Shown here: one piece after another, positions 31,419 to 37,547 of the stretch
How the letters are laid out: each line of letters opens with the position of its first letter
How positions within the stretch are numbered: position 1 is the first letter of the stretch
Assembly (NCBI RefSeq): GCF_000284415.1
Contig: NC_017059.1
Coordinates: 2,247,834-2,311,833 of the forward strand
Length of the DNA stretch: 64,000 nucleotides
Source: Pararhodospirillum photometricum DSM 122
Lineage (GTDB): Bacteria; Pseudomonadota; Alphaproteobacteria; Rhodospirillales; Rhodospirillaceae
Reading direction: 5' to 3'
Translations under genes and position numbers: made by a program
The notes under the pieces: generated by a model
The model's input: the letters and a program-made list of their open reading frames with translations, nothing else
Told to the model about the DNA's origin: nothing
Database searches by the model: none

Positions 31419-33154
31419 CGGGCTGGGGACTGTTGCTGCGTCTGGCCCGCGAGCACCTGCCCTCACAGGCTCTGTGGATGGCCTTGGGGGTGGCGTGCAT
31501 GTTGGGCGTGGCCGGGGCCACCGCCGCCATTGCGTGGCTGATGGAGCCGGCCTTCAATCAGGTGTTCGTGGGCGGCAATCGCGATACCTTGGTGTGGCTG
31601 GGCCTCGCCTTTCCCGTGGTGTTCGTGACCAAGGGCCTTGCCAATTACGGCCAGCGCACCTTCATGAACCGGGTCGGCCTAGAGATCGTCGCGCGCTATC
31701 GCCGCGCCCTTTACGACCACTTGCTCGGCATGGACATCGCCTTCCTCGGGACGCAGCGCACCGCCGATCTGGTGACCCGCTTCACCGTCGATCTGACCAT
31801 GCTCAAGAACACCATCACCTCGGCCACCATGGCCCTGGGCCGTGACATCGCCACCTTGCTCGGGCTGGTCGGCACCTTGGTGGCCCTGGATCCTACCTTG
31901 GCCGCCCTGGCGCTGGCGTTGTTCCCGGTGGCCGGGGTGCCGATTTTCCTGATGGGGCGGGCGGCGCGCAACGCGGTGCGCGGCATGCAGTCGGAGTCGG
32001 GCCGGCTCGATGGCGTGGTGATCCAGGCCCTGGGTGGCTTGCGGGTCGTGCGCCTGTTCGGGGGACAGGCGTTTGAGGAAGCCCGGGTCGGTGCCACCTT
32101 GGATCTGATCCACCGCCACATGATGCGCACCGAACGCCTCGCCGCCTCCTTGTCCATGGGCCTGGAAATCCTCTCGGGCGTGGTGTTCGCCGGGGTGGTG
32201 GTGTACGGCGGACTGCGGGTGTCCGAGGGCAGCTTGTTGCCCGGCACCTTCTTTGCGTTCGTCACCTCGGTGTTCCTGCTCTACCAGCCGATGAAGCGGC
32301 TGGGCAAGATCAACGTGGTGACCCAGGAGGGCATCTCGGCTCTGGAGCGCACCTACGCCATCCTCGACGCCCGCCCCACCTTGCAAGATCCCCCCAACGC
32401 CCCGGACCTGCGCGTAACCGGGGGCGAGATCGTCTTTGACCGGGTTCGCCTGACCTATCCCGGCGAGGACCACCCGGCCCTTGAGGACCTGAGCGTGCGC
32501 CTCGCCCCTGGTCAGACGGCAGCCCTGGTCGGCCCGTCGGGGGCTGGCAAATCCTCGGCCCTGGCCCTGCTGGCCCGCTTTCGCGATCCCGACCAGGGGC
32601 AGATCCGCCTCGACGGGCAGGACATCAAAACCGTGTCGCTGCGCTCCTTGTGGGCGTCGCTGGCCGTGGTGACCCAGGACGTGGTGTTGTTCGACGACAC
32701 GGTGCTGGCCAACATCGCCTATGGCCGTCCCGGCGCCCCGCGCGAGGCCGTGATTGAGGCCGCCGAGGCGGCGGGCGCCCATACGTTCATCAGCGCCCTG
32801 CCCCAGGGCTACGACACCGTGATCGGGGAAGAGGGCGCCACCTTGTCGGGCGGCCAGCGCCAACGTCTGATGCTGGCCCGCGCCTTCCTCAAGGACGCCC
32901 CGATCCTGATCCTGGACGAAGCCACCAGCGCCCTCGACCCCGAGAGCGAACGCGGCGTGCGTCAGGCCTTCGACCGGGTGCGCACCGGCCGCACCTGTCT
33001 GGTGATCGCCCACCGTTTGGCCACCGTGCGCAACGCCGATGTCATCCACGTGCTGGATCAGGGCCGGATCATCGCCTCGGGGCGGCACGACACCTTGCTC
33101 ACGTCGTGCCCGCTTTATGCCCGGCTGTGCGCCTCCGGTACCTTGGAGGCCTGA
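31415..33154 (+). CDS. msbA: MsbA-like lipid/multidrug ABC exporter
   Basis: 579 residues. Six membrane helices (about 1-310) are followed by an ATPase with Walker A GPSGAGKSS, signature LSGGQRQR and Walker B ILILDEATSALDPESE. This is a half-transporter that works as a dimer, flipping lipid A or other lipids at the inner membrane. The GTG start at 31415 overlaps the LptF-like stop, so both probably serve one envelope pathway. The lipid A substrate is inferred from that context. Confidence 0.85.
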   Translation: MTGWGLLLRLAREHLPSQALWMALGVACMLGVAGATAAIAWLMEPAFNQVFVGGNRDTLVWLGLAFPVVFVTKGLANYGQRTFMNRVGLEIVARYRRALYDHLLGMDIAFLGTQRTADLVTRFTVDLTMLKNTITSATMALGRDIATLLGLVGTLVALDPTLAALALALFPVAGVPIFLMGRAARNAVRGMQSESGRLDGVVIQALGGLRVVRLFGGQAFEEARVGATLDLIHRHMMRTERLAASLSMGLEILSGVVFAGVVVYGGLRVSEGSLLPGTFFAFVTSVFLLYQPMKRLGKINVVTQEGISALERTYAILDARPTLQDPPNAPDLRVTGGEIVFDRVRLTYPGEDHPALEDLSVRLAPGQTAALVGPSGAGKSSALALLARFRDPDQGQIRLDGQDIKTVSLRSLWASLAVVTQDVVLFDDTVLANIAYGRPGAPREAVIEAAEAAGAHTFISALPQGYDTVIGEEGATLSGGQRQRLMLARAFLKDAPILILDEATSALDPESERGVRQAFDRVRTGRTCLVIAHRLATVRNADVIHVLDQGRIIASGRHDTLLTSCPLYARLCASGTLEA

Positions 33155-33186
33155 AGGATCTGGGGAGGTCCCTCCCTCCCCAGACC
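33154..33186. repeat. Family S repeat, divergent copy
   Basis: GGATCTGGGGAGG...CCTCCCTCCCCAGACC, a diverged unit between the convergent MsbA-like and EamA genes. The AAGGCT arm is missing. Confidence 0.6.
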
Positions 33187-33191
33187 AGCGT

Positions 33192-34067
33192 TTACCCGCG
33201 CCGACTCATCATGGCGGTGCCGATGGAGGCCCCGACCACGGCGACAATGCCCAGCCAGTGCGACAGCGGCAGCATTTCGCCCAGAAGCAGCATGCCCATC
33301 ACCGCGCCCACCGCCGGCTCGCCGCTGGTCAGGATGCCAAAGCTGCGGGCCGGCAGGCGGCGCAGGGCAATCATCTCCAGCGAGTAGGGAATGGCGCTCG
33401 ACAGCACGGCCACGGCCAGACCACTCATCAAGATGGCGGGCTGGAGCAGGGCCGTTCCCGCTTCCCACACCCCAAACGGCGCCACGGCCAGGGCGGCGAC
33501 AATCATCCCCAGCATCGGTGCCTGGGCGCCCAGCACAGCGCCGGCCCGCTGGCCGGTGACAATGTAGGCGGCCCAGAACACCCCGGCCGCTAGGGCCAGG
33601 GCAACGCCCAGCGGATCCAAGGCCGCGTCGCTGGCCTCCAAGGGCAGCAGCAGCAACAGACCGGCCACCGCCAAGGCGATCCACACAAAGTCGGTCCGCT
33701 GGCGGGAATAAAACAGGGCCAGCGCCAAGGGGCCGGTAAACTCGATGGCCAGGGCGATCCCCAGCGGCAGGCGCTGAATGGAGAGATAAAACAGTAGGTT
33801 CATCGCGCCCATGACCAAGCCATAGGGCAGCGCGGCGACCACAGTGCGGCGGGTCAGGCGCACCCGCCAGAGTCCCAGAACCAACGATAAAATCACGGCG
33901 GCCAGGGCCAGACGCAAGGTCGTGGTTCCAGCGGCACCAATCGCGGGGAACAGCCCCTTGGCAAACGACGCCCCCAGGGTGATCGACACCATGGCCAAAA
34001 CAGCGGCGCCAAGGGGGGCCAGCGTCGCCACCGAGGACGACGGCAGGGCAAGGCTACGGACAGTCAT
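33192..34067 (-). CDS. EamA/DMT-family transporter
   Basis: About 291 residues with ten predicted membrane helices in two EamA repeats, including YLSIQRLPLGIALAIEFTGP and YSLEMIALRRLPARSFGILT, the segments typical of RhtA/YdcZ-like metabolite exporters. It probably exports amino acids or related metabolites; the substrate is unknown. The ATG at 34067 has GAGGA six bases upstream. Confidence 0.85.
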   Translation of the reverse strand: MTVRSLALPSSSVATLAPLGAAVLAMVSITLGASFAKGLFPAIGAAGTTTLRLALAAVILSLVLGLWRVRLTRRTVVAALPYGLVMGAMNLLFYLSIQRLPLGIALAIEFTGPLALALFYSRQRTDFVWIALAVAGLLLLLPLEASDAALDPLGVALALAAGVFWAAYIVTGQRAGAVLGAQAPMLGMIVAALAVAPFGVWEAGTALLQPAILMSGLAVAVLSSAIPYSLEMIALRRLPARSFGILTSGEPAVGAVMGMLLLGEMLPLSHWLGIVAVVGASIGTAMMSRRG

Positions 34068-34195
34068 CTTCAATCCTCAAACGCAGGGATCCGGCAATCC
34101 TATCGGTCCCCCACGATAAGAACGGTTGATATTAGCGCCGAAGCGATAAACTTTATCCCTTTCCTCCCTCCCCTTGAGAATTTTGGAGGGGGCTT

Positions 34196-34410
34196 CGCTT
34201 CGGGGCAACCGGGGCTGTCGCCCCGGACCCCACCTGGAGGCTGACGCCTCCAGACCTCCGCTTTCTTTTATTTATTGGCCCCCTTCCCCCTCCCTTTTGA
34301 AAAGCACGCTTTTCAAAAGGGAGGGGGAAGGGAGGGCCATGAACAGAAGAAAAAGGGGGTCTGGGGCATCGCCCCAGGCGGGGCCCGGGGCGGCAGCCCC
34401 GTGTTCCCCG
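34196..34410. repeat. Large imperfect palindrome, family L, copy 2
   Basis: A second large copy of the element seen at 3.3-3.5 kb, with the same outer GGGGCTGTCGCCCC / GGGGCGGCAGCCCC blocks. The core at 34277-34338 has arms that match except for about two positions around an AC loop. It fills the gap 34074-34424 between the EamA gene and the small paralogue genes. Nothing else is seen in that gap. Confidence 0.85.
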
Positions 34411-34424
34411 GTCCGGCCCCTCGC

Positions 34425-34580
34425 CTAGGACGACAGGCGAGGCATGAGGGGGCGTCGCTCGCAGGCGAGGGCGCGATCAAAGGCGGCCTCTTCCGAGGGG
34501 GCGTGCTCGGCCCAGTGGCGGGAGAAAGCGAAGGGGCGGCACAGGCCCAGGGCCTCGGCGGCCAGGAAAAAGCGGTTCAT
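34425..34580 (-). CDS. Small conserved protein, paralogue A (51 aa)
   Basis: A minus-strand frame from ATG 34580 to TAG 34425. It begins MNRFFLAAEALGLCRPFAFS and continues RHWAEHAPSEEAAFDRAL. It aligns without gaps to the next small gene upstream (26 identities over 44 positions). Shared features are MxRFFL, GLxRP, RHWxEH, SEExAFxRAL and RxP. AAGGA lies about nine bases before the ATG. No membrane segment or known domain is recognised. The similarity of two neighbouring frames is strong evidence that both are translated. Confidence 0.75.
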   Translation of the reverse strand: MNRFFLAAEALGLCRPFAFSRHWAEHAPSEEAAFDRALACERRPLMPRLSS

Positions 34581-34609
34581 CGTATCCATCCTTCAGGACA
34601 AGAACTGGC

Positions 34610-34774
34610 TCACAACCACGTCCAGGGCACTGGCGCAAAGGGGTGACGTTTGCTCGTCAACGCCCGGGTAAAAGCGCCCTCCTCCGAGGCCGTATGCTCA
34701 TCCCAGTGACGACCGTAAGTCGCGGGGCGCGAGAGCCCCATGGCCTGGGCAACCAGAAAAAACCGGCTCATCAT
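34610..34774 (-). CDS. Small conserved protein, paralogue B (54 aa)
   Basis: A minus-strand frame from ATG 34774 (or 34771) to TGA 34610, starting MMSRFFLVAQAMGLSRPATY, then GRHWDEHTASEEGAFTRALT. An excellent ribosome site (GGAGGA) lies about eight bases before the first ATG. It is 29 bp upstream of paralogue A and shares about 59% identity with it over 44 residues; the C-terminal tails differ. The two form a probable bicistronic unit from the promoter at 34896-34924. Function unknown. Confidence 0.78.
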   Translation of the reverse strand: MMSRFFLVAQAMGLSRPATYGRHWDEHTASEEGAFTRALTSKRHPFAPVPWTWL

Positions 34775-34895
34775 GACGCGGTCCTCCAGTTGTTTTGTTT
34801 TTGTCGTCCGGCCCTTGGCCGGCAGCGAAGAACGACCGGTGTGTTTGCCTTTCCTTCCCGGGATCAGTTTCGACCCGTGTCGTTGTCATAAAGGG

Positions 34896-34924
34896 GATAT
34901 AGCGCACAATGTGCGCGGCCGCAA
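34896..34924 (-). promoter_or_regulatory. Promoter with palindromic operator-like spacer upstream of the small paralogues
   Basis: On the minus strand TTGCGG (34919-34924) and TATATC (34896-34901) are 17 bases apart. The spacer contains the 15-base palindrome GCGCACATTGTGCGC (34902-34916). A repressor binding there would block RNA polymerase. The leader to paralogue B is about 115 bases and includes a CCGGCC/GGCCGG hairpin near 34812-34830. The interval 34925-35103 is AT-richer and shows no gene. Confidence 0.5.
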
Positions 34925-35103
34925 GGGGCGAGGCAAAAATTAAATCCTGGGGCCTCAAGCGCTTAACCGTTGGATGTCATCGGGTTGTCATAATTCTGAC
35001 GCTGACGCCGAAAAGAATCAGTCCAAACAAGCCTCTGGGCTCCACGCCCAACCAAGGGGCGGGGCAAGGCAGGGGGTTGTGAAATCTGGGGTGAAGAAAG
35101 AAG

Positions 35104-35138
35104 AAGGCTGGGGAGGCGCGGCCTCCCCAGCCCCCTCG
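35104..35138. repeat. Family S repeat, single copy
   Basis: One unit with centre GCGCGGCC and a CCAGCCCCCTC tail variant, just after the 3' end of the nucleotidyltransferase-like gene, in a position to terminate it. Confidence 0.82.
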
Positions 35139-35147
35139 CCAAGGGCG

Positions 35148-36089
35148 TCAGGCGGGGAGCGTCTCGGGCAGGCGGGGAAAGACTGGGCCCAGGAGATCAC
35201 GCCACACCGCGCTGGCTGGCCCAACCTCGCCGCTGGCCGCTAGATGCCGGGCGCGGACGCAACGCCAGTAGGCGGAAACGGTGGCGCCCTGGAGGCCCTT
35301 GCCCAGAAACAAGCGGCGAGACGCGCCGGGCAAGGCAAAGGCACCGGGCAAAGCGTCGCGCGCCCAGGCCATGAACATCTCGAACAGCAAAGGCAGGCCG
35401 GCGGGGGTTCGTGTGCTCTGGAAGTAGGCGCCGACCAGGATCTCCAGGGCATAGCCCGAAACCGGCACCCGGTTACGCACCCGCCACGCCTTCAGCAAGC
35501 ACAACAAGCGCCGAGGGCGCGGGCCCTCCAGGTGATCCAAACGACGCAAGCAGGCGACCTCGGCCCCCGGGTCATGCTCCACCCACTGGGGCAGCCCCTC
35601 GGGATCGCGGCCGGGAACCAGCAGGCGTGCCCCCTGGCGGCACACCGGCAGCAAGGCGATGGGCAGGTCCTCCAGGCGCAAGACGATTGCCCGACCGTCC
35701 GGGCGCGGCACGGCACGGCCCAGCCCGGTTTCCACCACGGCCCGCGCCAGGCAGGCCAGGGCAGCGGCCGGGGTTTCGCTGTCGGCGTCCGAGACCAGGG
35801 GCAAAAACAAGTCGGCGGTCGGCGGCAGGGCCTCGATCTGGATCGCCGTACAGCGTCCCACCGCCCCCCCACCCACGGCTGATCCCCATCGCCCGGCGTG
35901 GGGGGACAGCAACCCCCGGGCCTGAAGACAAGCCACCACCCGCTGGCTGGCGCCATAAAGGCGGTTGATCACGAGATCGCTGGGCCGCAGGCCGTTGACC
36001 GCAGCCAGAAAGGCGGCGGCCACCGCGTCCGAGGCATCGCCGGGGCCGGCCAACGGATTAATCCAGGAAATCACGCCGTCGTCGGGCAT
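35148..36089 (-). CDS. Degenerate nucleotidyltransferase-like protein (CD-NTase/OAS fold suspected)
   Basis: 313 residues with no strong family match by eye. The order of segments resembles CD-NTase/2'-5'-OAS-type enzymes: GRCTAIQ then TADLFLPL where G-S...DxD would lie (about 78-98), LPIALLPV where the third Asp usually sits (about 142-149), LPQWVEHDP (about 166-174), and LLCLLKAWRVRNRVPVSGYA (about 195-214), a helical-domain signature. The catalytic Asp pattern is largely missing, so it may be inactive or act as a binder. The assignment is tentative. It lies upstream of the small paralogues on the same strand. Confidence 0.45.
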   Translation of the reverse strand: MPDDGVISWINPLAGPGDASDAVAAAFLAAVNGLRPSDLVINRLYGASQRVVACLQARGLLSPHAGRWGSAVGGGAVGRCTAIQIEALPPTADLFLPLVSDADSETPAAALACLARAVVETGLGRAVPRPDGRAIVLRLEDLPIALLPVCRQGARLLVPGRDPEGLPQWVEHDPGAEVACLRRLDHLEGPRPRRLLCLLKAWRVRNRVPVSGYALEILVGAYFQSTRTPAGLPLLFEMFMAWARDALPGAFALPGASRRLFLGKGLQGATVSAYWRCVRARHLAASGEVGPASAVWRDLLGPVFPRLPETLPA

Positions 36090-36183
36090 GGCCGCCGTGT
36101 CCTCCCAGGGCCAAACTCAGGAAGGGTCATAACACGCCGGGAAGATGAACATTCCGTTGCTTCGGGAGTGACTGGGACAAAGG

Positions 36184-36293
36184 AAGGCTGGGGAGGCTTG
36201 CCTCCCCAGACCCCTCGGTCCCGCTGGCCCTTCGCGTTGAGGGAAGGCCTCAGGATCGGAGGGGTCTGGGGAGGCGAGCCTCCCCAGCCTTCC
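36184..36293. repeat. Family S repeat, inverted pair
   Basis: Units at 36184-36217 and 36259-36293, inverted copies that differ at one central base (GGCTTGCC versus GGCTCGCC). They lie in the divergent gap 36090-36390, which otherwise shows nothing recognisable. Confidence 0.87.
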
Positions 36294-36390
36294 CTTTTGC
36301 CCGCGTTCCCGGCCTGTGCTCCAGAACTTGACCCAAGCCGCCCCCCTCCCCTTCTATGAAGCCCAGACCTTCGCGCCAAGGATCCCGCCG

Positions 36391-36957
36391 ATGGCCCGCA
36401 CCGAGACCCCCGATGTCGAGATTGACCGCCCCTGTCCCCCCTTCAGCCTGCCCGAACCCCTCACCGGGCGCTTGTGGTCGCAAGACGACGTCCGCGGCCC
36501 CCGGGGCCTGCTGGTCGCCTTTTTGTGCAACCACTGCCCCTATGTGAAAGGCATGATCGGGCGCTTTGTCGCCGATGCCCGGCTGTTGCAGGCCGAGGGC
36601 GTGGGGGTGGTGGCGATCATGCCCAATGACATTGAGGCTTATCCCGAGGACGCGCCGGATCTGATGAAAGTCTTTGCCCGGGACCACGATTTTTCCTTCC
36701 CCTACCTCTATGACGAGACGCAGGCAGTGGCCCGAGCCTTTGGCGCGGTGTGCACCCCCGATTTCTTTGGCTATGACCGGGGACTGCGCCTTAAGTACCG
36801 GGGCCGGCTGGACGAGGGCCGCAAGGACCCACCGCCGCCCGACGCCCCGCGCGAGTTGCTTCAGGCCATGCGGACGGTAGCGGCCGATCCCACCCACGTG
36901 CCAACCCCCCAGGTGCCCTCCCTGGGATGTTCCCTCAAGTGGCGGGGGGAGGCGTGA
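36391..36957 (+). CDS. Thioredoxin-fold (AhpC/TSA-type) protein
   Basis: 188 residues. After an N-terminal PPFSLPEPLTG region comes FLCNHCPYVKGMIGRFV, the C-x2-C thioredoxin-fold site of a family often annotated as thioredoxin-like or peroxiredoxin-like, then AFGAVCTPDFFGYD. It is probably a cytoplasmic thiol reductase or peroxidase; no signal peptide is seen. The ATG at 36391 is preferred over earlier in-frame starts that would add unconserved residues. Its stop overlaps the ubiX start. Confidence 0.82.
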   Translation: MARTETPDVEIDRPCPPFSLPEPLTGRLWSQDDVRGPRGLLVAFLCNHCPYVKGMIGRFVADARLLQAEGVGVVAIMPNDIEAYPEDAPDLMKVFARDHDFSFPYLYDETQAVARAFGAVCTPDFFGYDRGLRLKYRGRLDEGRKDPPPPDAPRELLQAMRTVAADPTHVPTPQVPSLGCSLKWRGEA

Positions 36958-37547
36958 CCCGCCGAGTGATCGTGGCCCTGTCCGGCGCGTCGGGAGCGAT
37001 TTACGGGGTTCGGCTCTTGCTGGCCCTGAGCCGAGTCCCTGACGTGGAGCGGCACTTGATCTTGTCGCAGGCGGCCTTGCGTACCCTGGCCGCCGAAACC
37101 GATGTCTCGCCCGTTGCCCTCCGCGCCTTGGCTGACGTGGTGCATGACCACCGCGACATTGGGGCATCGCTGGCCAGTGGATCGTTCAAGACCTTGGGGA
37201 TGATCGTGGCGCCGTGCTCGATCAAGACCTTGTCGGGCATTGTGAACTGCTATAGCGACAACCTCACGGTGCGCGCCGCCGATGTCTGCCTCAAGGAGCG
37301 CCGCCGGCTGGTTCTGCTGGTTCGTGAAACGCCCCTTCACCTGGGCCACCTCGACCTCATGACCCGGGCCACTGCCGCCGGCGCCATTGTGATGCCGCCG
37401 GTCCCGGCTTTCTACCAGCGCCCGACCACGCTTTTGGAGATGGTGGATCAGACCGTGGGCCGGGCGCTCGACCTGCTCGATATCGACAGCGGTTTGGTTC
37501 AGCGGTGGACGGGCACCTCCCCGTGTCCCCCTGCCCCAAGGGAGTAA
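36954..37547 (+). CDS. ubiX: Flavin prenyltransferase UbiX
   Basis: 197 residues from GTG 36954, with VIVALSGASGAIYGVRLL, APCSIKTLSGI, RRLVLLVRETPLHLGHL and MPPVPAFYQRP, all diagnostic of UbiX. It makes prenylated FMN for the UbiD decarboxylase in ubiquinone synthesis. The start overlaps the preceding stop by 4 bp. Confidence 0.95.
   Translation: MTRRVIVALSGASGAIYGVRLLLALSRVPDVERHLILSQAALRTLAAETDVSPVALRALADVVHDHRDIGASLASGSFKTLGMIVAPCSIKTLSGIVNCYSDNLTVRAADVCLKERRRLVLLVRETPLHLGHLDLMTRATAAGAIVMPPVPAFYQRPTTLLEMVDQTVGRALDLLDIDSGLVQRWTGTSPCPPAPRE

Follow-up and report, generated by a model that had tools for sequence, protein, structure and literature searches.

Two described systems join XRE-family regulators to small proteins and come closest to the locus analysed here. 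In Caulobacter crescentus, the gene for the small protein HfiA is directly repressed by the XRE-family proteins RtrA and RtrB, according to the available text of the two reports (PMC9648850, PMC10688885). In Streptomyces, the XRE-DUF397 systems consist of an XRE regulator with an associated small protein, as the accessible portions of the relevant papers describe them (PMC10364602, PMC6262351). The locus considered here lies in a window of 64,000 nucleotides from Pararhodospirillum photometricum DSM 122, by which we mean the whole stretch of DNA that was analysed. Our comparisons suggest that a pair of small genes in this window is probably one operon, coding for two lineage-specific small proteins, and that its promoter is probably kept closed by an autoregulated and conserved repressor of the XRE family (Cro/CI-type helix-turn-helix), which would be encoded elsewhere in the genome; we favour this reading without regarding it as certain.

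The two adjoining minus-strand frames are found where an earlier note on this DNA had placed them (Table 1), separated by a gap of 29 nt. Copy 2 can also be read from the first of its two ATG codons, which gives a product of 54 aa and moves the boundary from 34580 to 34589. The paralogy proposed for the two products holds on recounting, with 26 of 44 residues identical in an ungapped alignment, and tblastn against the window's own genome (G000) places the pair at 2282261-2282607, with copy 1 as a match of copy 2 at E 3.4e-14 and 57% identity. The purine-rich ribosome site ascribed to each frame is also present. Sequence comparison confirms that both frames are real genes, duplicated and belonging to a narrow family.

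Table 1. Positions in the window of the small-protein genes and their candidate control elements, with the loci at which another small gene lies divergent from the XRE gene
Feature	Position	Strand	Details
Small protein gene, copy 1	34610..34774	-	54 aa; ATGATG start; GGAGG 8 nt upstream
Small protein gene, copy 2	34425..34580	-	51 aa from second ATG; AAGG upstream
Palindromic candidate operator GCGCACATTGTGCGC (minus-strand reading)	34902..34916	.	0 mismatches; kept in 4/4 carrier genomes
Putative promoter block: TTGCGG, 17-base spacer with operator, TATATC	34896..34924	-	weak relative to consensus
5' leader (approximate)	34775..34889	-	about 115 nt; start site placed from the -10
Terminator-like hairpin after preceding gene	35101..35137	-	would set the pair apart as its own transcription unit
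Loci with divergent small gene	L064/L069, L100-L102, L108, L110, L112-L116		

The tblastn check proposed along with the original claims finds homologues in three other genomes. Strong matches are thus present in P. photometricum and in Pararhodospirillum oryzae NBRC 107573 (G001), with two tandem copies each, and in G008 and G027 of another genus, with one copy each; G027 is, we assume, probably Rhodospirillum rubrum. The strong matches number 4 among the genomes of 61 relatives (E 1.4e-6 or better), 4 among 73 genomes of the family and 4 among 317 of the order, and the remaining matches are weak: 29 more genomes of relatives at E 0.009-1, four further family genomes at E 0.003-0.009 and ten further order genomes at E 3.8e-4 or worse. 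Among 385 class genomes a single one matches at E up to 0.001, namely the window's own; these genomes are an even sample, and its matches include none of the other three carriers. Because the weak matches cover the profile only in part, and many are interrupted by stops or lie within long frames, we read them as chance.

The six sequences share 16 invariant columns (M2 R4 F5 F6 A9 G13 L14 W24 H27 E31 E32 A34 F35 R37 A38 L39), with a conserved start and similar lengths of 50-54 aa around a conserved core. The codon-position bias expected of translated genes is seen throughout: in the 41-codon core, third positions have the highest number of changes in every one of the 15 pairs, and pS is above pN in all 15 as well, a comparison that is often near saturation. 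The annotated frame also has the highest identity of the six frames in all three pairs tested. The motif RHWxEH, which the earlier note had singled out, is kept in part, with AHWFEH and ARWYGH as its forms in the other genus. In Pararhodospirillum, copy 1 of one species seems to be the orthologue of copy 1 of the other, and likewise for copy 2, to judge from the C-terminal residues (PWTWL/PWVWL and PRLSS/PRIGS); core identity, at 24-27 of 41 throughout the four listed comparisons of these copies, cross and within, is by itself no proof of separate orthology. All six proteins are neutral to basic with slightly negative overall hydropathy (-0.08 to -0.35), and they combine a conserved RFFLxA start with modest helical moments.

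The absence of a recognisable small-protein family is borne out by searches of Pfam, NCBIfam, PHROGs and PADLOC, which return no family at E up to 1 for either window protein; the family is new to these libraries. The G027 protein has one PHROG match at E 0.14. A phage, plasmid or viral origin of the pair was searched for with no match, and no RNA element matches Rfam at the gathering threshold within 32000-37500. A profile of the six sequences gives three chance-level matches among solved structures, the best at E 0.024 over 22 positions of a chlorite dismutase, and we recognised no published description of this XRE protein or of the small protein in the open-licence literature.

How the pair is transcribed can be approached from the upstream alignment, which contains one strong block in all four carrier genomes: TTG and, after five bases, GCGCACNNYGTGCGC followed by TAYA. 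The palindrome GCGCACNNYGTGCGC fills the 17-base spacer and abuts the -10. When TTGN5GCGCACNNYGTGCGCTA is searched with up to 2 mismatches, each of the four carriers yields one perfect site, always before the small gene, and the four genomes together yield three further sites with 2 mismatches each. The bare palindrome with 2 mismatches is found 14 times in the window, against 13.9 by chance, and is therefore not rarer than expected at this stringency, which leaves the exact site as the meaningful one. G008 and G027 each have two exact cores, spaced by about 133 and 143 nt respectively. Conservation of the operator rests on few lineages, since the small gene is carried by only four genomes from two genera. 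The promoter hexamers are weak relative to the consensus in three of the four genomes, and a strict sigma-70 scan of 34150-35150 returns no minus-strand promoter, the candidate block included. The promoter that had been postulated for the genes is thus supported once, before copy 1 and serving both copies, but not a second time before copy 2. Two terminator-like sites are found in 34150-35150, where shuffled sequences have a mean of 1.4; because such sites are this common in shuffles, the hairpin after the preceding gene is weak evidence on its own.

A gene for a CD-NTase-fold protein lies upstream of the small genes on the same strand in three genomes. It is missing from the corresponding place in P. 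oryzae, and is thus not an obligate neighbour. In the window it occupies 35148-36089 (-), is matched by PADLOC cyclase models (best E 7e-12) and has no Pfam match. Where we would usually expect the catalytic Asp residues, all three orthologues have T-x-D and, later in the sequence, an Ala (FAL/IAL); the protein is possibly an inactive pseudoenzyme. Between this gene and the pair, an exact TGTCA-N6-TGTCA lies at 34975-34990, with a counterpart at the matching place upstream of the P. oryzae pair (L024); the repeats presumably resemble a Pho box, and they read away from the small genes. Downstream of the pair, two perfectly complementary arms of 25 nt, with a 2-nt loop between them, make up an inverted repeat at 34281-34332. 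In G008, L025 1-2389 (-) holds one ORF, the start of which looks Cas9-like to us.

The same operator pattern points to a candidate regulator. Among the 317 order genomes, the longer pattern with at most 1 mismatch is found in five, the four carriers and G004, and in G004 a short gene for an XRE-type HTH protein lies in divergent orientation to the site (1 mismatch). HTH_3 (PF01381) scores 33.8 bits against a cut-off of 23 in the G004 orthologue, the one tested, which also has weak similarity to MqsA-type models, below cut-off. Each carrier genome has one strong orthologue of this XRE gene at 70-76% identity (G008 also has one weak second match), with CGCACNNNGTGCGC upstream of it in all four; in the window's genome it is found at G000:C1:3671103-3671309, about 1.4 Mb from the pair, and in G027 at G027:C2:840103-840306. 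In the family as a whole, XRE is present in 23 of 73 genomes (E up to 1e-12). The exact palindrome core occurs on either strand within 250 nt upstream of XRE in 12 of the 23, where 100 shuffles give a mean of 0.01 and a maximum of 1, and at least 10 of the 11 core positions are matched in 18 of the 23 (shuffle mean 0.42, maximum 2). Five XRE genomes are without a good upstream site, their best having 7-9 of 11 positions. Two sites are spaced 30-32 nt apart in 12 of the 20 XRE loci parsed. Since such sites before its own gene are what would be expected of an autoregulated repressor, the XRE protein looks like one and is, in our view, the leading candidate for control of the small-gene promoter.

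Exact cores are found at seven distinct places in the window's genome. The pair and the XRE gene have theirs in clear promoter position; of the remainder, three are inside ORFs, one is over the first codons of a 202-aa ORF (L075) and the last is just past an HNH-like ORF (L093). In G008, L083 1500-2005 has an exact and an imperfect operator-like site before a 102-aa ORF (MNAIIVYPAAYHGETRV...), which is possibly a further target of the XRE repressor. In G027, a perfect GCGCACCATGTGCGC lies between two genes around 1501-1515 of L079, which we take to be draT-like and nifH-like, and this site is probably due to chance; another lies upstream of one gene at L085, presumably ahpC-like, and may be chance as well. 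The P. oryzae genome contains GCGCACNNNGTGCGC at 20 places, 16 of which read GCGCACTCCGTGCGC or its complement, and these are a dispersed repeat distinct from the operator.

The XRE gene itself also has small partners at other loci. A different small protein faces it across shared operators in at least 11 of the 23 genomes, ten found by regular expression and one (G069) added by reading. Six of the proteins were aligned and have 74-94 aa, P. oryzae has a doubtful ORF of 63 aa, and in G004 the divergent small gene has the promoter TTGAAA, 17 bases, CATAAT. The four tested have no Pfam or NCBIfam match, and kinship with the window's proteins was rejected, hhalign giving a probability of 0.1 over one column. 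The regular expression finds no divergent small gene in the four carriers of the window's family. One tentative reading, which we hold to be possible and more doubtful than not, is that small orphan proteins are interchangeable behind the conserved autoregulated XRE protein, which would be their dedicated switch, with the operator-in-promoter design kept while the small protein is replaced between genera. It is based on the window's family being present in four genomes and duplicated in Pararhodospirillum, with an unrelated divergent small protein in at least 11. If true, small proteins specific to single genera would be marked as a set by one repressor and could be located through its operator, with no need of sequence similarity, which is the usual difficulty at a length of 50 residues.

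In the mechanism that we favour, the XRE protein would bind the spacer palindrome, and binding would repress the promoter of the pair because the palindrome overlaps the position of RNA polymerase. Some signal would lift the repressor off the palindrome and derepress the pair, upon which RNA polymerase would transcribe both small genes as one operon. Each product would be a short, soluble, largely helical protein that binds and modulates another protein. The regulatory part of this scheme is what we infer from comparison, which supports it well, and the protein-binding activity is our guess by analogy with HfiA. The earlier note had put the gene forward as a candidate regulator or stress protein; our comparisons point instead to a gene that is itself under control, as the target of a conserved XRE-type repressor.

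The small proteins might be feedback partners of XRE, made when the repressor is released and then binding it to tune or release it. Pairings of XRE regulators with small proteins are known, XRE-DUF397 of Streptomyces being one in the available accounts, and the divergent small genes described above show XRE facing small proteins across shared operators. However, the pair is unlinked to the XRE gene, its sequence gives no sign of an interaction, and 19 of the 23 genomes with XRE lack the small protein, which makes such feedback unlikely in our judgement, if still worth weighing. The palindrome could also belong to another regulator, or XRE could act there as an activator, and the pair would then not be repressed by XRE. 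XRE binding is a prediction from sequence, and the five XRE genomes without a good site would fit this alternative, but the core occurs before the XRE gene far above chance and fills the promoter spacer at the small genes, the position expected of a repressor; we think it a shade less plausible still.

Other alternatives concern the products rather than their control. If they were amphipathic peptides acting on the membrane, or toxic when made, tight repression would be accounted for, and the conserved RFFLxA start and modest helical moments are in keeping with this. The slightly negative hydropathy of all six proteins, the retention of both copies in two species and the lack of a match to any toxin family in Pfam or NCBIfam nevertheless make it very improbable. 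The transcript might instead be a regulatory RNA in which the ORFs are incidental, considering that the leader is about 115 nt long and that the product is known from its sequence alone. The consistent codon-position bias, the conserved starts and the negative Rfam search leave this explanation with hardly any weight. We retain repression of the pair by XRE as the preferred reading. It gives the small-protein family, known so far from a few purple bacteria that probably include R. rubrum, a concrete candidate regulator, operator and promoter.

Compared with type II toxin-antitoxin systems containing MqsA- or HipB-type HTH proteins, the likeness lies in the regulator, with HTH_3 above its cut-off, MqsA-type similarity below, and an XRE gene that looks autoregulated. 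Type II systems have two unlike genes in an operon, one encoding a DNA-binding antitoxin, whereas the window's genes are paralogues without an HTH match and no toxin partner was seen. XRE-DUF397 shares with our locus an XRE regulator and a small protein without assigned function. In Streptomyces, as far as the available descriptions go, the gene order is XRE first and then the small gene, whose product carries the DUF397 domain, whereas the window's pair is unlinked to XRE, has no Pfam match and does not form such a pair. HfiA under RtrA and RtrB, in what the accessible accounts describe, resembles our locus in being an alphaproteobacterial small protein with a gene under XRE-family repressors, here a predicted one; the likeness is one of description and not of sequence, and does not imply holdfast inhibition for the pair. 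What an XRE target would be expected to display is found here, namely HTH_3 in the candidate regulator and the same palindrome before both regulator and target.
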